Made by a program: the position numbers and the translations under genes. Under the pieces are notes generated by a model, which was not told the DNA's origin, searched no databases, and saw only the letters and a list, made by a program, of their open reading frames with translations. DNA of 38,947 nucleotides from an uncultured Lachnospiraceae bacterium. GTDB lineage: Bacteria; Bacillota; Clostridia; Lachnospirales; Lachnospiraceae. Where the stretch lies: NCBI GenBank assembly GCA_902779395.1, contig CACZBK010000028.1, forward strand, positions 1 through 38,947. The letters are read 5' to 3'. Positions 4,780-30,289 of the stretch are shown piece by piece. How positions within the stretch are numbered: position 1 is the stretch's first letter; the number at the start of each line of letters is the position of its first letter.

Positions 4780-5393
4780 GATTGGAAAATCTATGCCGTT
4801 CCTAGAGAAATTGTCGAGGGCTTTCACAAAACATATTGTGCGGAAACGGTTTTTGAACCGGAACTGACATATGCATCGTCATGTGATGTTGCGGAGGAAG
4901 CGGGACGAATCGATCAATATCTTTCCGGTGGCTATTTCAAATCTATTGATGTATGCGGTGGAGAGAATATACAACCGTTTGAAGTATTTCAGCCATTATA
5001 TCGAAAAGCTGAAAAGTATCATTTGATCAAGCGCATGCATGTTGGAGAGACCGGTCCTGCGGAAGATGTTATGCGGGCGGTTGAAATGCTCGGGCTGGAA
5101 GAAATACATCATGGCATACGGGCAGCGGAATCTGAGGAGGTGATGCGCTTCCTGGCTGATCAAAAGATACAGTTGAATGTTTGTCCAAGCAGCAATGTGA
5201 TGCTTGGATATGCAAGAAACTATAAGGAACATCCGATAAAGCTACTATACGAATATGGAGTCAGAGTGACCATTAATACTGATGATCTGCTCATCTTTGA
5301 TAGTTCGATAGAGAACGAATATCGCTTGCTCTATCAAGCCGGAGCTTTAAGCGTAAATCAGCTGGATGAGATACGCAGGATCGGGTTGCTGAT
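4780..5393 (+). pseudogene. Adenosine deaminase remnant, N-terminally truncated and fused to an Rpn fragment
   Basis: After a stop at 4777-4779 the frame reads continuously into an adenosine deaminase-like sequence. Visible are the YFKSIDVCGGE strand, the catalytic HVGET (H at 5038; HAGE in typical enzymes), EEIHHGIRA, LNVCPSSNVMLG and TINTDDLLIF, which carries the zinc-binding aspartate pair. The N-terminal barrel strand with the HxH zinc ligands is missing and no standard start exists; TTG 5023 and ATG 5035 are the first candidates. At about 5393, after DEIRRIGL, the frame passes without interruption into an Rpn-family sequence. The enzyme cannot be active as it stands. Confidence 0.75.
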
Positions 5394-6069
5394 GAACAAT
5401 GAGTATAATGATCTGGGCCTTTTGGCCGGAGACCATTTTCTTATACTGGCAGAGGCGCAATCTACATGGAGTGTAAATATACTGATACGTTTTCTTCTGT
5501 ATCTGGCGTCAACTTACAAGGATTATATAGAGAGCAAGGGGATAAGCCTTTACGGAACGAAAAAGGCTACGATACCGAAGCCGGAATTATACCTGATATA
5601 TTCCGGAAATAAGGGCAAGAAACCGGAGGTCCTTTCGTTCACGAAGGAGTTTTTCGGAGGAAATGAGAGTGCTATAGAGATTAAAGCAAGGGTTATTTAC
5701 GGTAACAACAAGAAACATGATGTAATCAGCCAGTACATTGCATATTGTAAGGTACTGGATATGCAGGTCAAAAAGTACGGAAGAACAAAGAAAACGATAG
5801 AGGAAACTATCAGGATATGCTCTGCTAAAGACATACTGAAGGAGTACTTGAAGACACACAGGAAGGAGGTAGTAGACATTATGACACAGTTATATGACAG
5901 AGAAAGAGAAATGAAGCTGTATGTTGAAGAGGAGCGAAAAGAGGAAAGAATTGAAGCCATAAAGAAGCTTATGAAAAAGCTGAAAATGAGTGCAAAGGAA
6001 GCTATGGATGTATTAGACATAGCCCCGAAGGATCAGAAAACCTACCTTCCGATGCTGAAAAAAGGGTAG
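5394..6069 (+). pseudogene. Rpn-family recombination-promoting nuclease/putative transposase, N-terminal truncated
   Basis: From MNNEYNDLGLLAGDHFLILAEAQSTWS onward the frame is the PD-(D/E)XK nuclease family transposase (Rpn) common in Lachnospiraceae. It keeps the EAQ catalytic motif, LLYLASTYKDYI, PKPELYLIYSGN, TKEFFGGNES and a charged C-terminal tail ending PKDQKTYLPMLKKG. The first roughly 80 residues are replaced by adenosine deaminase sequence. The result is a 348-codon open chimera if TTG 5023 is used. A strong internal ribosome binding site precedes ATG 5881 (listed separately). The C-terminal part is duplicated at 13701-13963. Confidence 0.75.
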
Positions 6070-6164: not shown

Positions 6165-7016
6165 TTATGATCTGCTATCAAATATGCTAATGTATACGTC
6201 TGAGGCATTAAGATCGGTAAGGAATCTTTCTTGAAGCTCATCTGCTTTTGTCTTATCTTCGAGCCATTGTTTATACTCCATTTGTAATTTGAGTTTATGC
6301 TCTTTGCGGTATTGGGCTGCACGTTCTTTAGCGGATGATGTATCAGATAAGGTTCTTCCGCTATGTTTGGCAGCAAGGCATTTGCCGGGATGCAGGATCT
6401 GGTCAATATAGGCCTGACTGCGAACTTGTGCACGACCGTCTGTAGAGCATGACATGTTTGAGACGGCACTCCCGCGATAGGGGATCTCTTCGGACCCCGG
6501 CATCTGTCCCACACCTTCGATCGAACGATTGGCTTCTGCTAAAGAGAATATGCTGCCGGCTATGTAGTTAGTCACGTTTTTACCGCTTGTGTATTTCAGT
6601 GTATAGCCATTTTTGCCTTGCAATTCACTATCCATGAGTCCGAATACTCTGGCGCGATAAGCAGGATCCGAAGCCATTTTGTTTAGCTGTTTGTCATCAA
6701 TATACAGATAGTATTTCCCTTTAACCGGATCCTTTGGTTCACGGTTTGTAAAAGTGTACTCAGGCATATACTTTTTGATTTCATCTTTCAGCTCATCTAC
6801 GCTGATCAGACCGTCTGTACCGTTCTTTGTAAATTCGGAGCGGTAGTAGTTAACAGCCTTACGCTTATAATCTATAAAGCCTTCTCCCATATCTTCAAGA
6901 TAGTTATATACTTTCTTTGGATTCCATACGGGGCGGGGGACATCTGCTGTTTTAGGGTTTTGTGTATAAGATGCGCTGATCTGAATGCTGTATTCGCTTT
7001 GGATCATTGTACTCAT
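6165..7016 (-). CDS. Conserved Lachnospiraceae protein of unknown function (283 aa), LytTR-regulon member
   Basis: The ATG at 7014-7016 follows AAAGGAAGG on the minus strand. There is no signal peptide or membrane segment. The N-terminus MSTMIQSEYSIQISASYTQ is Ser/Ile/Tyr-rich. The body includes FIDYKRKAVNYYRSEF, DGLISVDELKDEIKKYMPEYTF, KYYLYIDDKQLNKMASDPAYRARVFGLMD, and a basic C-terminal helix rich in K/E/R. I recognise the general type as a Lachnospiraceae hypothetical protein (perhaps the DUF6033 group; not verifiable here) but no function. Upstream lies a tandem repeat pair shared with the regulator and the 10494 operon, which places it in the same regulon. It ends at a hairpin shared with the Rpn remnant. 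Confidence 0.8.
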   Translation of the reverse strand: MSTMIQSEYSIQISASYTQNPKTADVPRPVWNPKKVYNYLEDMGEGFIDYKRKAVNYYRSEFTKNGTDGLISVDELKDEIKKYMPEYTFTNREPKDPVKGKYYLYIDDKQLNKMASDPAYRARVFGLMDSELQGKNGYTLKYTSGKNVTNYIAGSIFSLAEANRSIEGVGQMPGSEEIPYRGSAVSNMSCSTDGRAQVRSQAYIDQILHPGKCLAAKHSGRTLSDTSSAKERAAQYRKEHKLKLQMEYKQWLEDKTKADELQERFLTDLNASDVYISIFDSRS

Positions 7017-7063
7017 AGAACGACCTTCCTTTCTGGCATATGAATATCTACTGATAAGGTATT

Positions 7064-7123
7064 CGGAAGATTATTTCTGATCATAAGGGATATGTAGTGA
7101 AAGACCATTCAAATGTTGCGAAT
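7064..7123 (-). promoter_or_regulatory. Tandem operator pair and promoter of the 6165-7016 gene
   Basis: Read on the minus strand: ATTCGCAACATTT (7123-7111), spacer GAATGGTC (7110-7103), TTTCACTACATAT (7102-7090), then CCC and a TTATGA -35-like hexamer (7086-7081). The two copies are 21 bp apart start to start. The same layout precedes the genes at 8239 and 10494. A CCG occurs 15-17 nt after the hexamer and the -10 is not well defined (AATACC or TTATCA). Direct repeats one helical double-turn apart just upstream of -35 are how AgrA/LytTR regulators bind. Confidence 0.7.
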
Positions 7124-7146
7124 TGTGATCACAGCGGGGGAATAGT

Positions 7147-7959
7147 TTATACATTTATATCAACGGAAAAACCGGAAAAGCATTCTGCCGATACCTGTTC
7201 GGAAGCAAGGGCAGAATATGCCATATCAGCCATATCGGTAGATGATCCCAGCTTTGATATTCCGGAACCTCCCTTTTCACGTTCATATCGTTCAAACATA
7301 GCTTTAAGATATTTCATATCAGCTTTAGTGATCTCCATCATTTCGCGGGCACGATGTTTTTTCTTTAATTCTTCGATATCATCCTCGGACATATCGGGAC
7401 TGATCATTTCACAGAGATCGTTCATCTCGGCTTCAAAATTCATTTCTTCCTCAATATCCTTAAGCATATCTTCAAATTCTTCCCGGGAAAACTCGGCCAT
7501 TTCTTCTGCAAGAGCAGAAATATCATCTTCTGAAAGAGAGGGAGTTTCAGCTGGATCAGAGGCGGTATCTGTAGTTGAGTATTCAGTATCATCACACTGT
7601 TCTTCAGCACGTTCTTCTTCTTTAAGATGATCTTTCTTTTTGCGGGCAACAAGAAGAATGGCTTCGGCGTGACTTAATGCTATCATAGCTTCCGAAGCAT
7701 CATAATCATTATGCATACATTTTTTCCGGAGTTCAACTACCTTGTAAAGGGTGCTGATATATGCAAGATAAGCGTCGGAAGCAGTTTTGGCCTGCATAAC
7801 ACGCGTAGAAATCTGCTTGAAACTGTAGTTCAGCTTTTTCTTCTTTTTTGTTGATGGATTAGATTTTCTTATACTTGAAATAAGCTGCTTATTAGAAGTG
7901 GGATCATATACAGTATAGGCAGCGGTTAAGGAATTGTTTATAGCGGATACAGAATTCAT
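7147..7959 (-). CDS. Acidic coiled-coil protein of unknown function (270 aa)
   Basis: Start ATG 7957-7959 has AAAGGAGG just upstream on the minus strand. The N-terminus MNSVSAINNSLTAAYTVYDP is polar, without charge or a hydrophobic core, unlike a Sec signal. A basic patch STKKKKKLNYSFKQI follows, then helical sequence ending in LLVARKKKDHLKEEE, then a strongly acidic Ser/Asp/Glu segment (about residues 115-180), then a further helical region. The C-terminus is Ser/Gly-rich (SGISKLGSSTDMADMAYSAL). No family is recognised. It is divergent from the response regulator gene and may be controlled by it. The N-terminus resembles those of the three genes at 10494-13182. Confidence 0.8.
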   Translation of the reverse strand: MNSVSAINNSLTAAYTVYDPTSNKQLISSIRKSNPSTKKKKKLNYSFKQISTRVMQAKTASDAYLAYISTLYKVVELRKKCMHNDYDASEAMIALSHAEAILLVARKKKDHLKEEERAEEQCDDTEYSTTDTASDPAETPSLSEDDISALAEEMAEFSREEFEDMLKDIEEEMNFEAEMNDLCEMISPDMSEDDIEELKKKHRAREMMEITKADMKYLKAMFERYEREKGGSGISKLGSSTDMADMAYSALASEQVSAECFSGFSVDINV

Positions 7960-8014
7960 GGCAGCCTCCTTTCTGCGGGATATAACGTTACTACGGGATC
8001 CGTCCCTTATTTTA

Positions 8015-8042
8015 ATTATATGATCCCAATACCGGTAAACAA
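8015..8042 (-). promoter_or_regulatory. Sigma-A type promoter of the 7147-7959 gene
   Basis: Minus-strand TTGTTT (8042-8037) and TATAAT (8020-8015) are 16 bp apart. The leftmost operator repeat (8048-8060) starts 6 bp beyond the -35, in the opposite orientation. The resulting leader of about 45 nt carries a small GGGA/TCCC inverted repeat near 7994-8006. Confidence 0.6.
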
Positions 8043-8047
8043 GGATT

Positions 8048-8163
8048 ATTCGCTACATTTCAAGGGCTATTCAATACATGGAATGCCATGGCTGATATTT
8101 CAATACATTTAAAGGTCGGTTCATTACATTTATCTTGAAATGCTATGAAGATTTGCCGAAATA
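8048..8163 (+). promoter_or_regulatory. Two tandem operator pairs and promoter of the lytTR-kinase operon
   Basis: Pair A: ATTCGCTACATTT (8048-8060), spacer CAAGGGCT, ATTCAATACATGG (8069-8081). Pair B: TTTCAATACATTT (8098-8110), spacer AAAGGTCG, GTTCATTACATTT (8119-8131). Both pairs have copies 21 bp apart start to start. Pair B ends 3 nt before TTGAAA (8135-8140). A -10 is less clear: GAAATA at 17 bp or ATTAGAT farther on. The consensus is nTTCnnTACATTT with spacer core AAGGKC. This is probably the binding site of the response regulator encoded immediately downstream, giving autoregulation. Confidence 0.75.
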
Positions 8164-8238
8164 CATTAGATATAGATTGATATGTCACCGACCAAAGCGA
8201 GGGGTGTGACATTATTGGACAGGAGGGGAGGCGGTGAT

Positions 8239-8961
8239 ATGAGGATAGCTGTCTGTGATGATGATAGAAGGATAAGAGAGATACTTTTAAGGGAAATCAG
8301 CGACTATGTTCCCGGTGCGGAAGTGATATGTTATAAGAACGGAGAGGATCTTCTGCATGCAGAGTTGATCCCAGATATCCTCTTTCTGGATATTGAAATG
8401 CCGGGAATAAACGGGCTTAAGCTTGCTGAAAGACTACGCGGGAATGGCATGGATATTGTGATCATTTTCATATCCGGGGAAGATAAGTATGTATGGCAGG
8501 CATTTGATGTTGAGGCATTTCAATACCTGAGAAAGCCAATATCTAAGACAGATCTTACGAATACGCTGGAGCGTGCGTTGCTGAAGCTTCAAAACAGCCG
8601 GGGTGAGAATGATGAGGATAAGCCCAGTATGATGATCAGATATAAAGGAGTTTCGGAAAAGGTTTTTCTTTCTGATATCATATATGCCGAAGCTTGCGGA
8701 AGAAAAGTTGTTCTGCACAGGATGAATGATCAGGTGGAGTATTATGGAAAGATATCCGATCTTGAGATGATGCTTGGAGGAGATTTTTTCCGGGTTCACA
8801 GAGCTTTTCTTATAAATCTGAAATATGTCGTTAGATATGGGGCTGACGGTATCACGCTGAAAAAGGGAAATGTCAGTATATCAAAAGCAAATTACCCTCT
8901 TTTTGTGAAACGCTTTTTACAGTACAGCGCCGAAAAAGCTGTGGGAGAGAATGATAAATGA
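8239..8961 (+). CDS. LytTR-family response regulator (240 aa)
   Basis: The receiver domain is at residues 1-120: MRIAVCDDDRRI with the acidic pocket, phospho-acceptor D51 in LFLDIEMPG, and KPIS at the conserved lysine. The LytTR DNA-binding domain is at about 135-232: IRYKGVSEKVFLSDIIYAEA, KISDLEMML, FFRVHRAFLINLKYV. I chose ATG 8239, after AGGAGG/GGAGGCGG; the frame is open from ATG 8182. It overlaps the kinase gene by ATGA. Two tandem repeat pairs of AgrA-type geometry lie upstream. It probably activates or represses its own operon, the leftward gene at 7016 and the operon at 10494. Confidence 0.93.
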   Translation: MRIAVCDDDRRIREILLREISDYVPGAEVICYKNGEDLLHAELIPDILFLDIEMPGINGLKLAERLRGNGMDIVIIFISGEDKYVWQAFDVEAFQYLRKPISKTDLTNTLERALLKLQNSRGENDEDKPSMMIRYKGVSEKVFLSDIIYAEACGRKVVLHRMNDQVEYYGKISDLEMMLGGDFFRVHRAFLINLKYVVRYGADGITLKKGNVSISKANYPLFVKRFLQYSAEKAVGENDK

Positions 8962-10349
8962 AGCACGATCCTGACTGGTATCAAAATGTATTTGAGGTAA
9001 TGAACACAGCGGAGCTGCTGCTGGTATTTTTGCTGTTCGGATTCTGTTTTGCCGTTATGATCAGACCTTATATGAGAAAGAAGATTACGGTTATTGTTTC
9101 AGGGATACTGACTGCTGCAGGAGGAACGATCATCTGGATCCTCAGTGGCAATGGTGGGACATTTGGCTATTCATTCGTGGTGCTTTCGGCGTTTATTCTG
9201 ATGTACCTGATGGAAAAAGAGAAGCCGCTGCAGAAGATATTTCTTTGCGTGATGTTTCTGACGCTGCGTTTTATATGCAGTGCAGTTCTGGTGGAATGGG
9301 GGCTGTTTTCTATATGGTTTGACGTTAATGTGGGTGATATCAGTACCGGAATGGATCCTGATCAGATAGTGGTCTATTATGCATTTTCGCGCCTGATATC
9401 GGTGATAGCCAGAACGCTGTTACTATATCTGATGATACGGCTTATTCAAAAGGCATATCATAGAAATGATGAATTGAGCATTCAGGAGTTGTTTCTGCTG
9501 TTGATACCTACTATAACCCCTCTGCTGGAAGGAACGGTATTTCGTGAATACATGAACATATATAATCAGGGAGTCGAGAACGGGTATATCAAAGAGAATA
9601 TACCACCGGATATTATGCGGTTTCTACTTTATCTTTTCAGCTATTTTGCGGTGCTTATGGTAGTAGTTTTGTATGAACGTGTTCGGAGGCAGCAGGAAGA
9701 AAATGCCCAGATGCAGGCCCTTGAAAAAGAGATCGCCCAGATACAGAGAAGCATAGAGCAGACAGAGATCCTGCATGAACAGATCAGGACGCTCAGACAT
9801 GATATCTCAAATCATCTTATGACAATGGAACGCCTTACCGAAACTGATAATAATGACGAAGCCAGGCATTATCTGAAACGCCTGAAGGAGGAGTTTTCGG
9901 CAAGCCTGGAAGGGATACGATGCGGTAATCCGGTGATAGATGCCGTGCTTGATGCCAAACGGGATATGGCTGTAAAGAATGGTATAGCGTTTCAATGCGA
10001 TTTTCTTTATCCGGGGCAGCCGGATATAGATGTATTTGATCTGAGCGTATTACTTAATAATGCGCTTGATAATGCGTTGAGAGGGGCAAACGGCAGGGAA
10101 CCGTGGATAAGGATAAATGCTAAAGGTCATGAACGTTTCCTTACGATCCTTGTTACTAATAGCTATACCGGTGAGAAACTTCACCTTGATGCAGACGGAT
10201 TTCCGGTCAGTACAAAGGAGGGGGAGGGGCACGGCCTGGGACTAAAGCTGATACGCCGCATATCGCATCGTTACAATGGTGAGACAGAGTTTATTCAGCG
10301 TGAAGGAGAGATAGAGCTGCGCATTCTCCTTCATGAGAAGAATACATAA
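8958..10349 (+). CDS. AgrC-like GHKL sensor histidine kinase (463 aa)
   Basis: The N-terminal 240 residues hold about six hydrophobic segments (for example LLLVFLLFGFCFAVMI and FLLYLFSYFAVLMVVVLY), a membrane sensor without a large external domain. A coiled coil (residues about 240-275) leads to the phospho-acceptor H281 in LRHDISNHLMTMERL. The GHKL ATPase follows: N-box LLNNALDNAL (about 365-374) and G-box GEGHGLGLKLI (about 421-431). The start ATG overlaps the regulator stop (ATGA). Kinases of this type detect peptides or membrane signals and phosphorylate LytTR regulators. No AgrB/AgrD peptide genes are seen nearby, so the signal is unknown. Confidence 0.92.
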   Translation: MKHDPDWYQNVFEVMNTAELLLVFLLFGFCFAVMIRPYMRKKITVIVSGILTAAGGTIIWILSGNGGTFGYSFVVLSAFILMYLMEKEKPLQKIFLCVMFLTLRFICSAVLVEWGLFSIWFDVNVGDISTGMDPDQIVVYYAFSRLISVIARTLLLYLMIRLIQKAYHRNDELSIQELFLLLIPTITPLLEGTVFREYMNIYNQGVENGYIKENIPPDIMRFLLYLFSYFAVLMVVVLYERVRRQQEENAQMQALEKEIAQIQRSIEQTEILHEQIRTLRHDISNHLMTMERLTETDNNDEARHYLKRLKEEFSASLEGIRCGNPVIDAVLDAKRDMAVKNGIAFQCDFLYPGQPDIDVFDLSVLLNNALDNALRGANGREPWIRINAKGHERFLTILVTNSYTGEKLHLDADGFPVSTKEGEGHGLGLKLIRRISHRYNGETEFIQREGEIELRILLHEKNT

Positions 10350-10362
10350 ACTTTTCGTAACT

Positions 10363-10428
10363 ATCGGATACATTAGAAGGTCTGTTCATTACAAGTCTAT
10401 TGTTTTTCTTTAAAATAATCCGTAGTAT
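10363..10428 (+). promoter_or_regulatory. Tandem operator pair and promoter of the 10494-13182 operon
   Basis: ATCGGATACATTA (10363-10375), spacer GAAGGTCT, GTTCATTACAAGT (10384-10396): copies 21 bp apart start to start. The second copy ends 3 nt before TTGTTT (10400-10405), with TAGTAT (10423-10428) at 17 bp. The stretch AAGGTCTGTTCATTACA matches the regulator's own site at 8112-8128 in 16 of 17 positions. This links the operon to the LytTR regulator. Confidence 0.8.
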
Positions 10429-10493: not shown

Positions 10494-11417
10494 ATGGCAG
10501 GTATAAACGGTATCAATTCGGGAATTGACTATTCCGTATTCTTTGGCGGTTCGTCCACATCTTCAGCAGACGGCGTAGATCTGACATCATATATGTCGAT
10601 CAAGAATGGCAGTTATCGCAGACTTTTGAAGAATTATTACAGCAGCCAGAAGGCTGAGGCAAAATCAGCAGTTGGAGATACGGGGGCAACGCTGACAAAG
10701 ATCCGTTCTGCTGCAGACAATCTTCAGAAAAAGTCTGATGCATTGTCCTCTGACAAACTCTGGGCTACGACAGAAAGCGTGGATGAAGGAACCGGAAAGG
10801 TCACGGAAACCTTGACCAACCCGGAGGCTCTGGTAAAAGCGGTAAAGGAGTTTGCAGACGCATATAATAAGACAATAGATGCAGCTGCGGGGTCAGAAAC
10901 CAAGGCTGTTCTGCGTTCCGGTGGGTGGATGGATAACATGTCACGTAAAAACGGGCGTCTGCTGAATGAAGTTGGAATAACGATAGGCTCTGACGGCAAG
11001 CTTTCGGTTGATGAAGATGAATTGAAGAAAGCGAATGTCACCACATTAAAGAGCCTGTTCAAGGGAGTGGATTCATATGCGTCAAAGGTCTCGGCAAAGG
11101 CTGCGGCTATAAGCAATTCGGCGGCACGGACAGAGAGTACCTATGATTCCGGTGGGAATTGGAACAATAATATGAGTACAATCGCTAGGTCACAGATCGA
11201 TTCGGTTATAGGAGGAGATAGTGATAAGGAGACTTCGGTAAGCAAAACCCGGACCGAAACGGAGAATAATATAAAGAGCTTAAAGGAAAAGCGGGAAAAA
11301 CTGCAAAAAGAAATGAATAAAGCGGTAGGATATGATGCTACCCGTGATTATGAAACTCAGATAAAGAAGCTTGATAAAGAGATAAAAGAGGCTGAAAACA
11401 GGTTAAAATACCTTTGA
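10494..11417 (+). CDS. FliD-like C-terminal domain protein of unknown function (307 aa)
   Basis: ATG 10494 follows AAGGAGG at 10481-10487. The N-terminus MAGINGINSGIDYSVFFGGS is polar, without a Sec signal. The middle and end recall the C-terminal half of flagellar cap protein FliD: VKEFADAYNKTIDAAAG, LLNEVGITIGSDGKLSVDE, LKSLFKGVDSYASKVSAKAAAI, and a final charged coiled coil (KSLKEKREKLQKEMNKA...). It is shorter than FliD and lacks the outer D2/D3 domains, so it is not a normal cap. It may be a small filament-end or exported helical protein. First gene of three; 19 bp separate it from the next ATG. Control by the LytTR sites upstream is likely. Confidence 0.75.
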   Translation: MAGINGINSGIDYSVFFGGSSTSSADGVDLTSYMSIKNGSYRRLLKNYYSSQKAEAKSAVGDTGATLTKIRSAADNLQKKSDALSSDKLWATTESVDEGTGKVTETLTNPEALVKAVKEFADAYNKTIDAAAGSETKAVLRSGGWMDNMSRKNGRLLNEVGITIGSDGKLSVDEDELKKANVTTLKSLFKGVDSYASKVSAKAAAISNSAARTESTYDSGGNWNNNMSTIARSQIDSVIGGDSDKETSVSKTRTETENNIKSLKEKREKLQKEMNKAVGYDATRDYETQIKKLDKEIKEAENRLKYL

Positions 11418-11436
11418 AGAAGGGGAGGTGGATGTT

Positions 11437-12069
11437 ATGGCTATAGATGCGATAAATGGAAATTCAGGTGTTTATACAGGATATTATAATTCCGCAGTTT
11501 CCGCTAAAGAGAGCAAGGCTGATAGCAAGTCTGATGCAAAAGAAAAGAATGATGCAGCGGCAGTATATGAGAAGAGTGACAGCAAGGTGGAGGCATCAGA
11601 TCAGAAGAAGCTATATAAGCCGGATCAGGCGATGATAAGCAAGCTTAAGGCGGATGCTGACTCTCATAAAAAACAGCTGCAGGATATTGTTGATAAGCTT
11701 ATCACAAAGCAGGGTAAGGCTTTTGATATCGCAAATGGAAAGAATCTCAAGAATCTGTATGCCGGTCTTAATGTGGACGCGAAGACAAGGGCACAGGCCC
11801 AGGCTGATATCTCAGAAGATGGGTATTACGGTGTAAAGCAGACCTCCCAGCGTATATTTGACTTTGCCATGGCATTAAGCGGCGGGGATCCGGATAAGAT
11901 GGAGAAGATGAGGTCAGCCTTTGAGAAAGGGTTTAAGAAGGCGACAAAATCCTGGGGAGATAAACTGCCGGATATCTGTCAGCAGACTTATGATGCAGTG
12001 CAGTCCATGTTTGATGACTATAAGGAGCAGCAGAAAAAAGCGGCTGATGGTACTTCCGAAATTGAATAA
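11437..12069 (+). CDS. Conserved Lachnospiraceae protein of unknown function (210 aa), DUF5610-like pattern
   Basis: I chose ATG 11437 (GGGGAGG 9 nt upstream) over the GTG at 11428. The N-terminus MAIDAINGNSGVYTGYYNS has the same polar Ile-Asn style as its neighbours. A lysine/aspartate/serine-rich low-complexity linker spans about residues 25-60. The C-terminal two thirds hold a compact domain: ISEDGYYGVKQTSQRIFDF, ALSGGDPDKMEKMRSAFEKGFKKATKSWGDKLPDI and QQTYDAVQSMFDDY. That pattern recalls DUF5610-type proteins; function is unknown. Second gene of the operon. A possible extra promoter at its 3' end could serve the third gene. Confidence 0.8.
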   Translation: MAIDAINGNSGVYTGYYNSAVSAKESKADSKSDAKEKNDAAAVYEKSDSKVEASDQKKLYKPDQAMISKLKADADSHKKQLQDIVDKLITKQGKAFDIANGKNLKNLYAGLNVDAKTRAQAQADISEDGYYGVKQTSQRIFDFAMALSGGDPDKMEKMRSAFEKGFKKATKSWGDKLPDICQQTYDAVQSMFDDYKEQQKKAADGTSEIE

Positions 12070-12089
12070 ATCGGAAAATATGGTATCAT
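12062..12089 (+). promoter_or_regulatory. Possible internal promoter before the third gene
   Basis: TTGAAT (12062-12067) and TATCAT (12084-12089) lie 16 bp apart, with TG one base before the -10 (extended -10). They overlap the stop of the second gene. GCCGG (12106-12110) can pair with CCGGC at 12117-12121 or with a second CCGGC nearer the ribosome binding site, which might tune translation. Confidence 0.35.
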
Positions 12090-12147
12090 AGAGTTGTATG
12101 TATGCGCCGGAAGGAACCGGCATCAGTTACCGGCAAGGAGGCAGAAT

Positions 12148-13182
12148 ATGAGTCTTTCTATCAATCTTAATGACGCAAATAAGATAAATATGCCCGGCAT
12201 AGCAGTTGCTTCATCTGTTTCTCAGAAAGAAGGCGAAAAGAAGACTTCTGTGTTCATGGGGGATCTGAATATAGGAAAAGATCCTGTAAAAGAAAAGCTT
12301 GAAAGTGCCAGAAAACAGGCTTTTAAGCTTGTATCTGATGCTTATGGTGCTGACAGGGATTTCGATAAGCAGCTGGGAAAGATAAAAGACCTGGCGAAAG
12401 AGATGAAAATTGAAAAAGCTGCGGCACAGGAGGATAAAAAGGCCGCCGAAGAGGCTATCGAAGGCATAAAGAAGGAGTATTCCGTTGGTCCGGATTCCAA
12501 GGAACAACAGGATCTGGAATGGCTCATGGATTACCGAAAGGCAAGTCCTGATGAGTGTTTCTGTGATCCGGAGCAGATGAAGAAAGATCGTGCACGGGCA
12601 GATGAAATAGAGGCAAATCTTACAGAATATCAATCACGTATGCTGGAAGCAGGTGAACAGCTGGATACGGCACAGAAACGCATTGATGAAGCTGATGCTG
12701 CGCTTGTTGCTACAAGACAGAGTCTTACAGATGCAGCGCAGGAGAAGAATAAGAATCATGCCATGGTGGATGCCCAGAATGAGGCAGAAGCCATCATGGA
12801 TGCTGCAGAGAAGTCAGTTGTTGGCATGATCATGAATGATGCCAAGGACAAAATTGACGAAAAGGCACGTGAGGAGCAGGAAAAAGCCGAAGAAAAGAAA
12901 GAAGAGGAAGAAAAACAGGAGAAGATCGAGGCGGAACGTGCCGAGAAGAAGGCTATCCAGGAAGCTCTGGCGGAAGGATCTAAAGAGGCGGTGCAGGAGG
13001 CCAGGGATCAGAGCAGGCAACGTGAAAATGATGATCTTGAACTGACGGATGTATTGGGAAGTGATCCTACGCAAAGGATTGAGAATGCCGGTAATGTAAA
13101 TGCTGCGCTCGATGAGCTTAAGAATAAGATGGCACTGATAGATGCGGATCTTAAGGGTATAAAGATCGATGAGTCGGTATAA
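12148..13182 (+). CDS. Long coiled-coil protein of unknown function (344 aa)
   Basis: ATG 12148 follows AAGGAGG by 6 nt; an upstream in-frame ATG at 12094 lacks a site. The N-terminus MSLSINLNDANKINMPGIAV is polar. GDLNIGKDPVKEKLESARKQAFKLVSDAY then opens a nearly continuous helical, charged region with acidic and Ala-rich heptads (about residues 70-240), followed by a lysine/glutamate run at about 235-275 and a final helical part with the motif LTDVLGSDPTQRIENAGN. I know similar Lachnospiraceae hypothetical proteins but no function. A terminator follows at 13205. Third gene of the operator-linked operon. Confidence 0.8.
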   Translation: MSLSINLNDANKINMPGIAVASSVSQKEGEKKTSVFMGDLNIGKDPVKEKLESARKQAFKLVSDAYGADRDFDKQLGKIKDLAKEMKIEKAAAQEDKKAAEEAIEGIKKEYSVGPDSKEQQDLEWLMDYRKASPDECFCDPEQMKKDRARADEIEANLTEYQSRMLEAGEQLDTAQKRIDEADAALVATRQSLTDAAQEKNKNHAMVDAQNEAEAIMDAAEKSVVGMIMNDAKDKIDEKAREEQEKAEEKKEEEEKQEKIEAERAEKKAIQEALAEGSKEAVQEARDQSRQRENDDLELTDVLGSDPTQRIENAGNVNAALDELKNKMALIDADLKGIKIDESV

Positions 13183-13715: not shown

Positions 13716-13963
13716 TAGACATTATGACACAGTTATATGACAGGGAAAGAGAAATGAAGTTGTATGTTCAGGAAAGAGAACAGGCAGCGGCAAAAGATGC
13801 TGAAAGAAAGAGCACTCTTGAGAATATTAAGAGCTTGATGAGAACTATGAAACTGAGTGCTAAGGAAGCTATGAATGCTTTACAGATTGCACCCAAGGAC
13901 CAGAAAACTTACCTTCCGATGCTGAAAAAAGGGTAGTTTGAGGAGATTTAAACATAATTAAGG
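13701..13963 (+). repeat. Long imperfect direct repeat, copy 2 (Rpn 3' unit)
   Basis: Matches 5860-6096. Homology starts a few bases before the internal ribosome binding site and extends past the stop codon to about 13963. The first copy is embedded in a longer Rpn frame; this one is joined to a DUF3800 stump. Confidence 0.75.
13724..13936 (+). CDS. Orphan Rpn C-terminal small protein (70 aa)
   Basis: ATG 13724 follows AGGAAGGAGG (13703-13712) by 11 nt, exactly as at 5881. The product starts MTQLYDREREMKLYVQERE and ends PKDQKTYLPMLKKG. It has a helical, charged N-terminus with an insertion (AAAKDAERKS) relative to copy 1 and the same KLSAKEAMNALQIAP core. There is no nuclease domain. It is open and well spaced from its site, so it may still be translated. 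It is either a decayed tail or a retained Rpn inhibitor. Confidence 0.6.
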   Translation: MTQLYDREREMKLYVQEREQAAAKDAERKSTLENIKSLMRTMKLSAKEAMNALQIAPKDQKTYLPMLKKG

Positions 13964-17997: not shown

Positions 17998-18042
17998 AAT
18001 ATGTGTAAATCCAATACTGTATTCATTTATGGAAGAGTTTGT

Positions 18043-18492
18043 ATGAAGATATGCTTAGCCGGTTCATCAGGAGGACATCTGGCACATTTATATATGTTAA
18101 AGCCTTTCTGGGCAAAACATGACAGATTCTGGGTGACTTTTGACAAGAAAGACGCAAGGTCGCTTCTTAAAGATGAGAGGATGATCCCCTGTTATCATCC
18201 TACCAACCGCAGCTTTAAGGGGCTTATGTTCAATACCATAATAGCATGGAGAGTGCTTCGTAAGGAACGCCCGGACCTGATAATCTCAACGGGGGCTGCG
18301 GCAGCTGTACCGTTTTTCTATGTTGGTAAGCTACTGGGAGCAAAGACCGTCTATATAGAGATCTTTGACCGAATCAATTTCTCTACACTTTCAGGGCGGC
18401 TGGCATATCTGGTTGCGGATAAGTTTATCGTTCAGTGGGAGGATATGAAGAAGATCTATCCTAAGGCTGTCAACCTTGGAAGGATTTTCTGA
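18043..18492 (+). CDS. PssD/Alg14-like glycosyltransferase membrane-anchor subunit (149 aa)
   Basis: It starts MKICLAGSSGGHLAHL, the glycine-rich N-terminal motif of the Alg14/PssD/CpsF family, and continues with IISTGAAAAVPFFYVGKLLGAKTVYIE and a final hydrophobic strand. In the two-subunit enzyme this part holds the acceptor (lipid-linked sugar) site and recruits the catalytic partner to the membrane. The partner follows after 23 bp. Such pairs usually add the second sugar of a lipid-linked repeat unit. I chose ATG 18043 with GGAAGAG before it. Confidence 0.85.
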   Translation: MKICLAGSSGGHLAHLYMLKPFWAKHDRFWVTFDKKDARSLLKDERMIPCYHPTNRSFKGLMFNTIIAWRVLRKERPDLIISTGAAAAVPFFYVGKLLGAKTVYIEIFDRINFSTLSGRLAYLVADKFIVQWEDMKKIYPKAVNLGRIF

Positions 18493-18515
18493 TTTTTCAT
18501 TATGAGGAATTGCAC

Positions 18516-19025
18516 ATGATATTTGTGACTGTGGGGACTCATGAGCAGCAGTTTGACAGGCTGGTAAGATATATGGATGAATGGGCCGGGCGGAACGATG
18601 AGGAAGTGATCATTCAGGCCGGATATTCGCGATATAAACCCTTAAACTGCAGATATCACAGTATGATTTCTTATGATAAAATGACCGAACTGGCAGCTAA
18701 AGCCAGGATCGTTATCTCGCATGGAGGACCGGCAAGCTTTATCATACCGCTTAAGGCAGGCAAGGTTCCCGTAATAGTCCCCAGAAGATCTGAATATAAT
18801 GAGCATATAAACGATCATCAGCTTCTTTTTTGCCGGGAACTTAGTAAGAGGTGGAAAGATATTATCGTTGTTGAAGATACGGATGAACTGGGAGATGTGA
18901 TCGGGAGATATGAAGAGATAACAAAGGATATCACGGTAGATTATAAAAGTAATAACGAAAGATTCTGTAGGAGATTTGAGAGAATAGTAGAGTCAATGAA
19001 TTTTGGACCGGGAAAGAAAAAATGA
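18516..19025 (+). CDS. PssE/Alg13-like glycosyltransferase catalytic subunit (169 aa)
   Basis: It starts MIFVTVGTHEQQFDRLVRY, the GT28 C-terminal type motif of Alg13/PssE/CpsG, with ISHGGPASFIIPLKAGKVPVIVPR holding the nucleotide-sugar binding loop and an NDHQLLFCREL helix. It uses a UDP-sugar donor together with the PssD-like subunit upstream. ATG 18516 follows GAGGA; the frame opens 6 nt earlier at TTG. The stop overlaps the next start by 4 nt (ATGA). Confidence 0.88.
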   Translation: MIFVTVGTHEQQFDRLVRYMDEWAGRNDEEVIIQAGYSRYKPLNCRYHSMISYDKMTELAAKARIVISHGGPASFIIPLKAGKVPVIVPRRSEYNEHINDHQLLFCRELSKRWKDIIVVEDTDELGDVIGRYEEITKDITVDYKSNNERFCRRFERIVESMNFGPGKKK

Positions 19026-20995
19026 CCGGAAAGATACTGGACAAAGCTGTGCTTATAGCACTTATAGCCCAGATAGGCTTTATACTGTACATGAACCTGT
19101 TTCATGCAGATACCATCATAGATTATGATTCATCGAGTGCATATATGCATGAGATTGAGATGGGGAGCCAGGGGAAGATATTTCCCGCGGAATATTCTTA
19201 TCAGGGTTCTTTGGATCTTGACAGCGGAGCACTGATATCGGCTGCTATTTACCGTGTTACAGGAAATATCTTTTTATCCCGTGGGATCACCAATATCCTG
19301 ATGGTATTTCTTTATATCTATGTCGTGGGCTGTGTTCTTGGCAATAGCGGGATTTCCCTGAGATGGAAGAGGTTCGGGATACTTTTGTTTCTTATTCCGT
19401 ACAGTATGATCATGCTGGGCTACTGGCGGATGCTTTTTACCGGTGGTGGCTTTTTTGCCGTCAGAGCGTTGATACCGATACTCATCATAAGCCTTCTGCA
19501 GGATTTCGATAAAGGAAAAGAGTTTAAGAGATACGCCTTCAGGGCAGCACTTTTATTGCTTATGGTTTTTCTTTGCGGTCTGAGCAGCGGGGCGTACGTC
19601 CTGCTTTGCGCGGTTTGCCCTCTGATCCTGTGGGAGTCAGTAAAGTTTTTTTTAAAGGCAGATCATTCAAAGCTTAAGTCAAAAAGGATGGTGCTTGCAG
19701 CTACGGCATCCGCCTCTGCTATCGCGGGCATAGCTGTTCAAAAGGGCCTGGGCTTTTCAACTATCGCCGATCAGAAACATCTTATAACCTCGGACAAATT
19801 CATCAGCAACCTATTTGATTGTTTTGCCGGCATATTTGAACTGTTCGGGGGCCTTACGATCCATGAAAATGTAAGCCTCTTTTCTGCGGAAGGTATCGGT
19901 ACGGCAGTGAATTTCTTCGTGACCTGTATATTGTTAGCGGCGGTGATCTACAGCATCGTTAAATGCATAAAGAAAAAAGAAATACCGGAAATGTACGGAT
20001 ATATCTTTTCGGTTATGCTGGTAAACGTTCTTATGTTTGCCTTTGCCGATCTTAAATACGGAGAGACGGTCTATGAGAGCAGATACCATCTGCTGCCTAT
20101 GCTGCCTGCATTTTTTTTGCTGGCAGGGATGCTGGAGGATCAGACGCAGAGCAGGCGGTTAAAATCTGTACAGATAAATGCCCTTCAGCTGCTGATCGCA
20201 CTGCTGTTTGCAGCTTCTCTGCTATACGGCGATGCGCAGTGGGTGTATGCGAAGACAGCGCTGGGCACGGAAAAGCTGAAAGAACTAAACGGAATCATGG
20301 AGGATGAAGCTGTTAAAACAGCTTTTATTGTCGGTGACGATAACAAAGTACTTGGAAGAAAGCTCAGGGTATACAGCAGAGATGTTCATTATATAGTTTT
20401 AAGTGACGGAGCGGAGAGTGCATGGCAGACTGCTTTTGGCGGGACCACACGCTATCTGGATAATTCCATGCAGCAGGGAAAGACGGCTGTCATAGCTTCT
20501 GCTGAAGCGTATAAGACGCTTCAGGCATATCTTGTTAAGGATATGAGCTATCTGACCGCTTATGACGGTTTGGATATATATGTTTCCGATACCGGTCACT
20601 TTGACTGCGAAGGCGGTATTTCAGCCGGAAAAGACAGGATCGTGGACTTTCCGTATTCACCGGGATATGTGTTTGACGGTGCAGATCTTTGTGATGACGG
20701 AACACTAAAAATGTCAGCCGGTGGAGGGCATCTTTGCAGTAAATATGGCTCTTCTGACGGTACATGGATATATACCGTTTATTATGATCTGCCGGAGCCT
20801 CCTGTGGATCAGGAGGGCGGCTCGTTTGAGATAAAGGTCGGAGATGATGATCCGGCTGTTGTGCGGCTTGATCCGGATGCCGCTTTCGTAAACAGCGGTG
20901 AGATAAGCATGACGGCAGGGAAAACTGTCAGTTTTTCATTAACCGCGCCGGAGGATACGGTGATCGAACGCATAGAGATAAGCCGGAAGAAATGA
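19022..20995 (+). CDS. GT-C-like multi-spanning membrane protein with extracytoplasmic C-terminal domain (657 aa)
   Basis: A first hydrophobic segment is followed by the loop DTIIDYDSSSAYMHEIEMGS, which places acidic residues where GT-C glycosyltransferases keep their catalytic motif, and by YQGSLDLDSGALISA. About ten further membrane segments run to residue 410. The last 230 residues are soluble and strand-rich (VYYDLPEPPVDQEG, ISMTAGKTVSFSLTAPED). GT-C enzymes transfer sugars from polyprenyl-phosphate donors outside the membrane. The role here, side-branch addition to the polysaccharide, is inferred. It could instead be a non-catalytic export protein. Confidence 0.65.
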   Translation: MTGKILDKAVLIALIAQIGFILYMNLFHADTIIDYDSSSAYMHEIEMGSQGKIFPAEYSYQGSLDLDSGALISAAIYRVTGNIFLSRGITNILMVFLYIYVVGCVLGNSGISLRWKRFGILLFLIPYSMIMLGYWRMLFTGGGFFAVRALIPILIISLLQDFDKGKEFKRYAFRAALLLLMVFLCGLSSGAYVLLCAVCPLILWESVKFFLKADHSKLKSKRMVLAATASASAIAGIAVQKGLGFSTIADQKHLITSDKFISNLFDCFAGIFELFGGLTIHENVSLFSAEGIGTAVNFFVTCILLAAVIYSIVKCIKKKEIPEMYGYIFSVMLVNVLMFAFADLKYGETVYESRYHLLPMLPAFFLLAGMLEDQTQSRRLKSVQINALQLLIALLFAASLLYGDAQWVYAKTALGTEKLKELNGIMEDEAVKTAFIVGDDNKVLGRKLRVYSRDVHYIVLSDGAESAWQTAFGGTTRYLDNSMQQGKTAVIASAEAYKTLQAYLVKDMSYLTAYDGLDIYVSDTGHFDCEGGISAGKDRIVDFPYSPGYVFDGADLCDDGTLKMSAGGGHLCSKYGSSDGTWIYTVYYDLPEPPVDQEGGSFEIKVGDDDPAVVRLDPDAAFVNSGEISMTAGKTVSFSLTAPEDTVIERIEISRKK

Positions 20996-21024
20996 TCCAA
21001 AGCCGGATACAAAGGAGAGGATAA

Positions 21025-22200
21025 GTGAAGATACTTATATTTGCCGAAGTATATTATCCGGACGTGATGGGCGGCGGCGAATTCTCAACAAAACAGATGG
21101 CGGAAGGCCTTGCCGAAAAAGGGCATGAGGTTGTTGTACGCTGTCTTGGAAAAAACAGGCGCAGAGAAATAATAAACGGAGTCTGCGTCAAAAGAATGTA
21201 TATAAAGGGCTTAAGCGAACATTTTCTGAGCAACACAAAGAATGAGCGTATCACTGATCCTTTTACGCAGTTTGACAAGATCATAAGAAAATGGGGCGAC
21301 ATATACCCGAGCAGAAAAATATATGAGATATACAGATCTGTGATAATAAAGGAAGCTCCGGATATAGTACATACGGTGTCACCGATGTCATATCTTGGCC
21401 GTTTTAATCTGTGGAAAGCGGCTTATGATCTGAAGATCCCGGTATCTCATGTATGCAGGGGGCCTAATCTGCTGGAGCTTAAGTTTATGGACGGGAGGCT
21501 GGATAGCTATAATAAATACAGGAATGCTAAGGCGTCCATGTACTTAAGTGCTCTGGTTGCGCCCTCCCGCTATATGTTAATGCGGCATAATGCCGCCGGG
21601 ATCATAGGGCATGACATTAATGAAGTAATATATAATGCGGTCGATTTTGAGGCTGAGCCTCTATACATAGATCGTATAGAACAAAAAGAGAACTTGATCC
21701 TTTATGCGGGAGAGATAAAAAAGGAAAAGGGCATAGGTACACTTCTCAGGGCAACGGAAGGATTAATAGGTGTTAAGCTCTTACTTATAGGAAGAGGAAA
21801 TATGACAGGCCTGTCAGATAACGGGATCGGGGCAGAAGTCATAGACTGGATGGAACGAGATGAGCTGTTTGAGTATATGAAAAGAGCAAAGGCTGTGATA
21901 CTTCCTTCGGAATGGGAAGAACCCTTCGGCCGTATACTTATCGAAGCAGTATTTAACGGGACGATAGCAATAGGCAGTGATAAAGGCGGCATACCGGAAG
22001 TTCTCGATCATAATGATAAATATATTTTTAAAAGCGGTAGTGCGGCCGCGTTACGAAGGCGGATCGAAAGAGTGATAAAAATGAGTCCTGCCGAATATCT
22101 TGAAGAAATAAAAAGTTTGCAGACAGCTTTATCGGGGTTTTCGAACGATAAATATATCGATAAGTGGGAAAGTTTCTTTTTAAAACAAAGGGAATTATGA
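21025..22200 (+). CDS. GT4-family glycosyltransferase (391 aa)
   Basis: It starts at GTG 21025 behind GGAGAGG: MKILIFAEVYYPDVMGGGEF, with the Gly-rich GT-B acceptor-side loop. The C-terminal donor domain has the family signature LILYAGEIKKEKGIGTLLRA, LLIGRGN, and the E-x7-E motif region LPSEWEEPFGRILIEAVFNG followed by IAIGSDKGGIPEVL. It is a retaining transferase using an NDP-sugar in the cytoplasm; donor unknown. Its stop overlaps the next start (ATGA). Confidence 0.9.
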   Translation: MKILIFAEVYYPDVMGGGEFSTKQMAEGLAEKGHEVVVRCLGKNRRREIINGVCVKRMYIKGLSEHFLSNTKNERITDPFTQFDKIIRKWGDIYPSRKIYEIYRSVIIKEAPDIVHTVSPMSYLGRFNLWKAAYDLKIPVSHVCRGPNLLELKFMDGRLDSYNKYRNAKASMYLSALVAPSRYMLMRHNAAGIIGHDINEVIYNAVDFEAEPLYIDRIEQKENLILYAGEIKKEKGIGTLLRATEGLIGVKLLLIGRGNMTGLSDNGIGAEVIDWMERDELFEYMKRAKAVILPSEWEEPFGRILIEAVFNGTIAIGSDKGGIPEVLDHNDKYIFKSGSAAALRRRIERVIKMSPAEYLEEIKSLQTALSGFSNDKYIDKWESFFLKQREL

Positions 22201-23153
22201 AAAGCATTGATGAAAAGATCGCAGATTCTGAGACCGAATGGCGCAGATACAGATATGATTATATCGGAGTCCGTGAAAGCGGAAAGGCTTTTTGTGCCGC
22301 TTTAAAAAGAAGCGCCGGAAAGAACTTAAGAAGAATATTCTGCACTGCATATGCAGGTGCTGTCAAAAAGACATTCAGGACTTCGTACGACAAAAACAGG
22401 ATAAATATCGTTGTCTCGCTTACAAGTACCGGAAGCAGGATCAGTAATATCATGCCGGCGCTGAATTCGCTTATATCCCAGAGCCGTAAGCCGGACCTGA
22501 TAATACTGTGGCTCGGAAAGGATGAGTCTTATCCCGCACAGATGATCAAAAAGATCAGAAAGAAGGGGATAACGATCAGATTCCGTGAGGATCTGGGCCC
22601 ACATACGAAATACTATCATGCATTCCGTGAATATAAAAATGATCTGATCATAACTGTTGATGATGACATCATATATCATAAAAAAATGGTAGAGGAATTG
22701 TACAGTACATATCTAAGGCATAAAGGCTGTGTGATCGCCAGGCGTGTGAACAGAATGAGGTTTGATCACAGCAGAAAACTCTTAAGGTATACAGACTGGA
22801 TCTGGGAGTACCGGGATGCAAAGGCTCCGGTTTACGATCTGCTAGCTACCGGTGTAGGGGGAATACTGTATCCGCCTAAGATCCTGAAGCTAAAGTGCTG
22901 GGAGAATAAAGATTTTTTGAACGTGTGCCCTTGGGCTGATGATATCTGGCTTAAATTCTGCGAGCTTTCCGCAGATATAAAGATAAAAGCCGTCCATAAC
23001 TCCGGATATGCTCTTGATGTTATAAATAAAGCATGTCAAAAGTCTTCTTTATCGGCAGAAAATGTAGATAAGGGAAAGAATGATGAACAGATCGATAGCT
23101 GTATAGGATATTTCGACATGGGAACAGATCTGTGCGAAAGAGTGCTGTCATGA
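22197..23153 (+). CDS. GT2-like glycosyltransferase (318 aa)
   Basis: ATG 22197 overlaps the previous stop. After about 65 residues of helical basic sequence it shows a GT-A fold: INIVVSLTSTGSRISNIMPA, LNSLISQSRKPDLIILWLG, GPHTKYYHAFREYKNDLIITVDDDI with an acidic DDD metal-binding motif, then an acceptor-side part GVGGILYPPKIL and CPWADDIWLKF. The ADD/W pair recalls transferases acting on surface glycans. Donor and linkage are unknown. The stop overlaps the next start. Confidence 0.75.
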   Translation: MKSIDEKIADSETEWRRYRYDYIGVRESGKAFCAALKRSAGKNLRRIFCTAYAGAVKKTFRTSYDKNRINIVVSLTSTGSRISNIMPALNSLISQSRKPDLIILWLGKDESYPAQMIKKIRKKGITIRFREDLGPHTKYYHAFREYKNDLIITVDDDIIYHKKMVEELYSTYLRHKGCVIARRVNRMRFDHSRKLLRYTDWIWEYRDAKAPVYDLLATGVGGILYPPKILKLKCWENKDFLNVCPWADDIWLKFCELSADIKIKAVHNSGYALDVINKACQKSSLSAENVDKGKNDEQIDSCIGYFDMGTDLCERVLS

Positions 23154-23929
23154 GTATACCCCGTATCATACATTATTGCTGGCTGAGCAATGATCCTGTT
23201 CCGAAAAAGATGAAACAGTATATCGCAGGCTGGAAAAAAATCCTTCCGGAGTATGAATTCGTTAAATGGGATCTAAACAGATTTGATAAGGATTCTTCAG
23301 CCTGGGTCAGCGAAGCGGTATATGCAAAAAAATATGCATTTGCATCAGATTATATAAGACTCTATGCTATATATCATTATGGCGGCATATATCTGGATAT
23401 GGATGTGGAGGTAATAAAGCCCTTCAATGATCTGCTTGATAAACCGTATATGCTGGCCTATGAAAGTCCTGATAATAAATTGATAGAGGCAGGCTGCTTC
23501 GGCGCCGAAAATAATGCCCCGTTCATTGAGGCCTGTCTGGCGCATTATAAGGACAGACATTTTATAAGAGCTGACGGGACCCTGGATACATGCCCGCTTT
23601 CAAAGATAATGAGCAGTATCATCAGAAAGAGGCCATCAAAGCTTGATATTTATCCCTGGGAATACTTTACTGCAAAATCTTTTAAAACAGGGATCGAAAC
23701 ACCCGGAGATAATACTTATGCGATCCATCATTTTGCGGGATCATGGAAGAGCAGAGAAGAACGCAGGATCATCAAAGCAGCCCGCAGGATAAGAAAAGCG
23801 CATCCCGTAGCCGGCAAATGTGCAGCGTTTTTATACGAGAAGACTTATAAAGCCGTATCAGTGCTAAAAAACGGCGGGATAAAAGAATTGTGTTACCGGA
23901 TCATGGAGTATTTCAGTGGACGTTCTTAA
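23150..23929 (+). CDS. GT32-type capsular polysaccharide glycosyltransferase (259 aa)
   Basis: It starts MSIPRIIHYCWLSNDPVPKK and carries WDLNRFDKDS, YAKKYAFASDYIRLYAIYHYGG and the DXD motif in IYLDMDVEVIKPF. These are the marks of the Gly_transf_sug (GT32) family, with the C-terminal AIHHFAGSW motif. Retaining transferase with UDP- or GDP-sugar donors. ATG 23150 overlaps the upstream stop (ATGA); the frame opens earlier at 23132 inside the neighbour. Confidence 0.9.
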   Translation: MSIPRIIHYCWLSNDPVPKKMKQYIAGWKKILPEYEFVKWDLNRFDKDSSAWVSEAVYAKKYAFASDYIRLYAIYHYGGIYLDMDVEVIKPFNDLLDKPYMLAYESPDNKLIEAGCFGAENNAPFIEACLAHYKDRHFIRADGTLDTCPLSKIMSSIIRKRPSKLDIYPWEYFTAKSFKTGIETPGDNTYAIHHFAGSWKSREERRIIKAARRIRKAHPVAGKCAAFLYEKTYKAVSVLKNGGIKELCYRIMEYFSGRS

Positions 23930-23964
23930 AAAGCCGGTATGCAAAGGAGCGTCAGGAAAAATAA

Positions 23965-25488: not shown

Positions 25489-25504
25489 GGTATTTGTTTT
25501 AGGA

Positions 25505-26635: not shown

Positions 26636-26639
26636 TGGT

Positions 26640-27515: not shown

Positions 27516-27539
27516 ATTGAAAGGACCTGAATCTTTAGT

Positions 27540-29141: not shown

Positions 29142-29221
29142 TCAACGTATAATAAGTGATAACTGTTATATTTAAGGCGTCATATTTGGAACTGCATAAA
29201 TTTTGGAAGGGGTAATGATAA

Positions 29222-30212: not shown

Positions 30213-30289
30213 ACCGTCGGTTCTTTGGGGGAATCATCAATTTTTTTAAGTATATTTAAAGTGCAGAGATGCACGGAAAGGATAATTCT

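Follow-up and report, generated by a model that had tools for sequence, protein, structure and literature searches.

The stretch of DNA analysed here (the window, 38,947 nt, contig CACZBK010000028.1 of assembly GCA_902779395.1 from an uncultured Lachnospiraceae bacterium) corresponds to contig C28 of a 3.58-Mb genome (G000). It contains a gene for a LytTR response regulator (RR), an adjoining gene for a GHKL sensor histidine kinase (HK) and a cassette of genes, here called A, C, D and E, of which C is FliD-like. The locus probably encodes a local, self-regulating LytTR system that activates sigma-28-type promoters of this cassette. Matching tandem operators precede RR, A and the operon C-D-E (10494–13182), and a sigma-28-like −10 element (GCCGAWA), missed in an earlier sequence-only reading of the stretch, lies 25–27 nt after the second repeat in most promoters of this kind. 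Judged from these sequences, the regulon is well supported by conservation. The features concerned are listed below.

6165–7016, minus strand: gene A, 283 amino acids, at most weakly DUF6033-like (PF19498, 0.0011, below cut-off).
7061–7067, minus strand: sigma-28-like −10 of A, TCCGAAT, two mismatches to GCCGAWA.
7093–7122, minus strand: operator of A, half-sites 7114–7122 (TTCGCAACA) and 7093–7101 (TTCACTACA).
8049–8078, plus strand: distal operator pair upstream of RR, without a −10 of its own, half-sites 8049–8057 and 8070–8078.
8099–8128, plus strand: proximal RR operator, half-sites 8099–8107 (TTCAATACA) and 8120–8128 (TTCATTACA).
8155–8161, plus strand: sigma-28-like −10 of RR, GCCGAAA, exact.
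8239–8961, plus strand: RR, response regulator with a receiver and a LytTR DNA-binding domain (Pfam Response_reg, PF00072, 1.5e-17; LytTR, PF04397, 1.5e-13; both above cut-off).
8958–10349, plus strand: HK, GHKL sensor histidine kinase (HATPase_c_5, 9.8e-17).
10364–10393, plus strand: operator of C-D-E, an imperfect pair, half-sites 10364–10372 (TCGGATACA) and 10385–10393 (TTCATTACA).
10419–10425, plus strand: weak sigma-28-like −10 of C, TCCGTAG, three mismatches, failing a two-mismatch test.
10494–11417, plus strand: gene C, 307 amino acids, like the FliD C-terminal domain (PF07195, 4.5e-7, above cut-off).
11428–12069, plus strand: gene D, 213 amino acids, starting 10 nt after C, no convincing family (one weak match below cut-off).
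12094–13182, plus strand: gene E, 362 amino acids (or 344 from 12148), no family, C-terminal tail IDESV.

The four repeat pairs at 21-bp spacing claimed by the sequence-only reading, including a fourth, distal pair upstream of the regulator, are all present in the window, and the repeat observation is confirmed. The LytTR gene said to lie in the middle of the promoters is RR, with both of its domains identified; the best solved-structure match of its C-terminal domain is the AgrA LytTR domain (6.3e-5). The window was scanned with the pattern TTCnnTACAT-N11-TTCnnTACAT at up to three mismatches, which gave seven matches against 0.60 expected; at least seven were obtained in 0/100 shuffles, and chance was thereby ruled out in the window. 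The same pattern was found in the window's own genome at four places with at most one mismatch, three of them at this locus, while at three mismatches background dominates (111 places versus 67 for a reversed control). The operators have a 9-12-9 geometry, and the second half-site ends about 6 bp before a TT at the −35 position. Some details of the earlier description required amendment. The 13-bp repeat unit originally proposed, nTTCnnTACATTT, is too long, as its trailing TTT is kept only in the upstream half-site (1.0–1.5 bits versus 0.3–0.4 downstream in the close loci) and was not seen in more distant relatives; TACATTT characterizes the close group. The AAGGTC core of the spacer is real and recurs in distant relatives, with a shift of one base at promoter A.

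Conservation was assessed in a close set consisting of the window and eight orthologous loci (66–100% regulator identity, stretches of 14–20 kb), to which a tenth locus (L152, 88% regulator identity) was added. All nine genomes carry RR, HK, A, C, D and E; in L075 and L082 the contig ends within E. Gene order and orientation are reshuffled; for example, A lies behind the kinase gene in L079 and L081, and C-D-E is divergent from RR in L081. An operator nevertheless precedes RR, A and C in 10/10 close loci, that is, at 30/30 promoters, one of which (A of L082) was recognized only by eye. With the pattern at three mismatches the operator was detected at 26 of the 27 RR, A and C promoters in the nine genomes, and the 27th is the degenerate site of A in L082. 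L152 carries the operator at all three promoters together with the distal pair, which is kept in 4/10 close loci (the window, L075, L079 and L152). The repeats are kept in relatives that keep the genes and track those genes through rearrangement. Searches of the nine genomes located 22/22 places with at most one mismatch at the module, and a control version of the pattern with 20-bp spacing gave zero places there. The core of the earlier claim withstands both checks named with it. A genome-wide regulon was considered and ruled out, the close-group operator at this stringency being confined to the module.

Alignment of 26 close promoters showed two conserved blocks, the operator and then a YCG-type element about 26 nt downstream, separated by a poorly conserved stretch. 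The YCG-type element was taken as sigma-28-like because it resembles the −10 of the Butyrivibrio fibrisolvens sigma-28 consensus, TAAA N16–17 MCGATAa (PMC3720852). GCCGAWA was scored at offsets of 24–28 after the operator and compared with 300 shuffles. At up to two mismatches it was present in 26/30 close promoters (shuffle mean 3.0, largest 8), and at up to one mismatch in 17/30 (mean 0.4, largest 3). All 11 promoters of distant relatives, mostly sites collected by eye, had it at up to two mismatches (mean 0.9, largest 4). The −35-like hexamers of the earlier description are not conserved beyond about TT. What these promoters conserve instead is a downstream −10 of sigma-28 type, so that ordinary −35 boxes are not supported.

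We regard it as unlikely that this is a LytTR regulon on ordinary sigma-A promoters, with CCGAWA arising only as a side effect of a TATAAT-type −10 that is extended or overlaps it. Exact TATAAT does occur, at offset 30–31 in the RR promoters of L076–L078 and L087, at 34 before A of L079 and at 20 before RR of L085; the window's C promoter has TTGTTT, a TATAAT-like word with one mismatch and only a weak CCGTAG; and comparable repeat pairs precede M13-peptidase lipoprotein genes with TATAAT-like −10s elsewhere (L252, L253). On the other side stand the fixed offset of GCCGAWA in the close and distant promoters and the families of the targets, which include FliD-like and FlxA-like proteins, while the window's RR and A promoters hold TATAAT only at two mismatches in the scanned stretch. 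TATAAT at the −10 place is below the shuffle mean (close promoters 7 versus 14.8, distant promoters 2 versus 6.0), and TATAAT promoters were rejected as a general rule.

The window's own genome encodes the FliA sigma factor (G000:C14:59320–59982, 8.9e-77, over cut-off) and one flagellin. A flagellar basal-body rod gene is preceded, at 102 nt, by an intergenic TAAAG...GCCGATA, and TAAAG...GCCGAAA lies ~3 kb upstream of the flagellin gene, within a mechanically long open reading frame (ORF). Comparison of FliA presence with module presence over 60 genomes was uninformative, because FliA was over the cut-off in 54/60 genomes, including 34/35 of this genus.

The same module was found in Lachnospiraceae records L151–L157 (for example AB2028, UBA4364, RUG811 and a water-deer rumen bin), several of which are rumen metagenome-assembled genomes. 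More distant regulators, with about 37–42% identity (L083–L089), are accompanied by operators of the same plan whose half-site is a different one, such as TTCACAACA-GAAAAAGGTCGG-TTCACAACA followed by TCCGAAA, TCCGATA or ACGATA. These operators lie mainly before the gene that comes after the kinase gene, and the genes behind them include members of the FlxA-like (PF14282), DUF6033 and FliD_C families. In G019 a gene of a 206-amino-acid family is on a different contig from the regulator, yet has the operator and −10 (L260), and in G016 a homolog adjoins the regulator (L088/L257); both assemblies are drafts. The composite is also present in an Acetatifactor contig whose RR is 41% identical (L161). 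C, FlxA or A genes were found in 9/80 named loci, among them L151 and L153–L157, which belong to genomes already used.

A profile of C matched 57/150 genomes of the family, and among the genomes looked at the C family is mostly away from this regulator. Twenty regions with C homologs were compared, namely a second copy in the window's own genome (L298), L299–L304 and L305–L317. All six of L299–L304 hold RR, FlxA and C, with HK inside the stretch in all except L302, and an operator precedes RR in 6/6 (degenerate in L300 and L301). When eight module sites in these six loci were picked by the operator alone (at most three mismatches), a −10 with at most one mismatch was found at 6/8 and with at most two at 7/8. 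Three further sites at this threshold were set aside, two inside ORFs and without a −10 (L305 and L311) and one in L298. The 13 loci L305–L317, which have a C homolog without such an RR, are all without the composite.

A broader pattern gave 34 places in 60 genomes against 9 in the control; judged by contig and position, 24 were at modules or cassette genes and 10, about the control level, were elsewhere. The composite of fixed-length operator plus −10, searched with one mismatch in 150 genomes of the family, gave 12 sites in 10 genomes, and the reversed pattern used as a control gave 3. LytTR genes account for eight of the 12: six sites belong to RR modules (the window, G151, G065 twice, G086 and G169), and two precede, by 128 nt, the genes of stand-alone LytTR-domain proteins with 111 and 124 amino acids (G002, L322; G192, L325). 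Three sites are inside ORFs. The other site, in the window's own genome (C13:2402–2464; L298, L329), has TCCGATA and differs very little from an RR promoter found in another genus (G169, L326). Its next gene, 286 nt away, encodes a family-2 glycosyl hydrolase, and the second C-family gene is 6 kb off; the site may be what is left of a promoter that belonged to a second module.

These distributions bear on whether another LytTR protein, or a different regulator, uses the sites while the adjacent RR is incidental. The window's own genome has 14 LytTR genes, one of them beside an AgrB gene on contig C9, and the stand-alone LytTR genes of G002 and G192 have related sites in front of them. However, operators and this RR occur together in 10/10 close loci and in the six further loci with RR, FlxA and C, the 13 loci with C and without such an RR have no composite, and the close-group sites are not scattered over the genome. 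We consider this the least probable of the alternatives, and a very improbable one.

The consensus core over 47 operators is TTYRnnRCA, in which only the C is invariant. The textbook LytTR half-site is WMMGTTNRK. The best register of the present motif against it averages 6.4/9 over the 47 operators and none stands out, so that a match to this consensus was rejected as not convincing, and the earlier statement that the motif differs from the textbook AgrA site was borne out. A new specificity peculiar to this regulator is not supported, because TTYRnnRCA-N12-TTYRnnRCA recurs with regulators of ~40% identity and in other genera. What remains of the regulon first proposed is thus the set of matching tandem operators, conserved at three promoters, without the new specificity and the ordinary −35 boxes.

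Spacing and position fit binding by AgrA/LytTR regulators, as had been suggested. Such sites are described as two direct repeats of ~9 bp with a spacer of 11–13 bp, with 12-bp spacers between 9-bp repeats just upstream of the −35 (PMC6193735), and AgrA activator sites are centred near −60 (PMC4227749). The half-site centre here is about 55 nt before the inferred start, close to the AgrA value. Together with the 9-12-9 geometry this favours activation, and in this lineage the regulator would likely also stimulate its own operon by positive feedback. Repression of flagella-type promoters by RR is improbable. Steric effects are conceivable, as the proximal half-site would end near −41; against this, the position resembles that of AgrA activator sites (PMC4227749) and of HdrR-type regulator sites (PMC6193735), and a degenerate −35, as found here, is what activator-dependent promoters would be expected to have.

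Taken together, we infer the following course of events from these sequences. The GHKL sensor kinase would phosphorylate the LytTR RR, of which two copies would bind in tandem, one on each 9-bp half-site (TTYRnnRCA, 12-bp spacer with AAGGTC, 21-bp period) in an operator that ends about 6 bp upstream of the degenerate −35. Bound RR would assist the sigma-28/FliA RNA polymerase in opening promoters in which a GCCGAWA-type −10 is retained and the TAAA −35 is missing. The targets would be RR's own operon, giving positive feedback, gene A and the operon C-D-E, and their products, a FliD-like protein and signal-less companions, may be substrates of the flagellar export apparatus. Under this scheme the genes would be expressed only when flagellar assembly has passed the sigma-28 checkpoint and the kinase has also received its signal.

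The proposed system is like those of AgrA/ComE-type RRs in its receiver and LytTR domains and the GHKL kinase gene next door, in the 9-bp direct repeats that lie immediately upstream of the promoter with 12 bp between them and, likely, in positive autoregulation (PMC4227749, PMC6193735). It differs from them in the TTYRnnRCA half-site with its AAGGTC centre, which is off the textbook consensus, and in the sigma-28-like −10; and it differs from AgrC-AgrA systems in that the single AgrB match of the genome lies on a separate contig, C9. HdrRM and BrsRM of S. mutans also have divergent 9-12-9 direct repeats upstream of the regulator's own promoter, but these are receiver-less LytTR proteins with membrane inhibitors (PMC6193735), whereas a full RR and kinase are present here; stand-alone LytTR genes with a composite promoter do exist, in G002 and G192. 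In C. difficile, agr is likewise a case of a LytTR regulator affecting flagellar gene expression, but most flagellar genes are affected there (PMC3754575), whereas here a local cassette has operators on sigma-28-type promoters; that paper uses neither the term 'binding site' nor 'direct repeat'. The sigma-28 flagellin promoters of Eubacterium, Roseburia and Butyrivibrio share the −10 (CCGATAT/MCGATAa) but have TAAA at −35, and LytTR is not mentioned in that source (PMC3720852).

Several observations weigh against the activation of sigma-28-type promoters by RR as set out above. Orthologous promoters are not independent of each other. The four promoters that failed the −10 test are all C promoters (window, L075, L152 and L082), and the distant promoters were mostly gathered with the −10 in sight. 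A TAAA at the −35 of sigma-28 type, 15–17 nt upstream, is not kept, only TT being conserved there, and no enrichment of TAAA-N14–16-GCCGATA was seen genome-wide (15 versus 12). The RR promoters of L076–L078, L085 and L087 read CGATATAAT, so that a sigma-A −10 overlaps. Among the seven distant loci an operator was seen before RR itself in only three (L084, L085 and L087, that of L087 being so degenerate that the scan did not place it first); none was seen in L083, L086, L088 or L089, and autoregulation is therefore not general there. The RR site of L303 is without a −10, the operator is absent from L164 (30% identical RR) although a FlxA gene is present, and the composite site at C13:2402–2464 precedes no module gene.

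Concerning the cassette proteins, a profile of the C family compared with the PDB at E 0.1 gave only two matches, both FliD proteins. An ortholog of gene A was found in 9/9 genomes of the close-locus comparison. DUF6033 homology of A was rejected, the match being weak and a profile of A having matched zero distant-locus proteins at E 0.05. HK has about six hydrophobic segments (KD19 > 1.6), and no hydrophobic N-terminal signal was found by hydropathy in any of A–E. One further gene lies between A and RR.

7147–7959, minus strand: gene B, 270 amino acids, divergent from RR, no family, no operator on its strand.

Gene B is present in 4/10 close stretches. A promoter of its own (TAAA-N14-CCGTAG, minus strand) was considered and rejected, as it is not kept in L075 or L079.

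A similar C-terminal tail, roughly [VI][DN][IVE]x[ILV], was noted on several non-homologous cassette proteins (VDINV, IDESV, VDVRV, VDIRL, VDIRI and IDLLI). It is carried by B and E in the window and by proteins in L083, L084, L085, L086, L088 and L299–L304; A, C and D of the window are without it. The tail is possibly a targeting or export signal.

No agrB was found in the locus; the single AgrB match of the genome is at C9:55040–55561, off contig C28, and agrD was not searched for. Within C9:54272–55561 this sole AgrB gene adjoins one of the LytTR genes, which would constitute a separate agr-like system. In two other genomes (L252, G028; L253, G031) TTCACCACA/TTCACAACA pairs at 21 bp lie before the M13-peptidase lipoprotein genes mentioned above, perhaps representing another LytTR-type regulon in the genus.

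Elsewhere in the window, the ORF at 5023–6069 has an adenosine deaminase domain (residues 5–120) in frame with a long unrelated tail. The end of this tail recurs as a separate 70-amino-acid ORF at 13724–13936 (68% over 71 amino acids); the arrangement looks like a mobile-element insertion, possibly of an Rpn-like family. A very long ORF (30269–38566, 2765 amino acids) lies downstream of what appears by eye to be a glycan/polysaccharide cluster (18001–30154).

Descriptions of LytTR regulators usually place them at promoters of quorum-sensing and virulence genes that are read by the housekeeping sigma factor. Among the titles and abstract openings listed there was no description of LytTR action on sigma-28 promoters, which does not establish its absence from print; no literature on DUF6033 or 'FlxA-like' proteins was found. 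On balance, we lean narrowly towards a wider interpretation in which a class of LytTR regulators, both RRs and stand-alone proteins, directly activates flagellar sigma-28 promoters, so that two keys, sigma-28 and a sensed signal, together gate a set of widespread, undescribed flagellum-associated and possibly flagellum-exported proteins of Lachnospiraceae. If this is true, the combination of a LytTR operator with a sigma-28-type −10 couples the last stage of flagellar gene expression to a signal from outside. It also draws attention to FliD-like, FlxA-like and DUF6033 proteins, a set that has been little studied, and the fixed composite would provide a sequence tag for finding such regulons.

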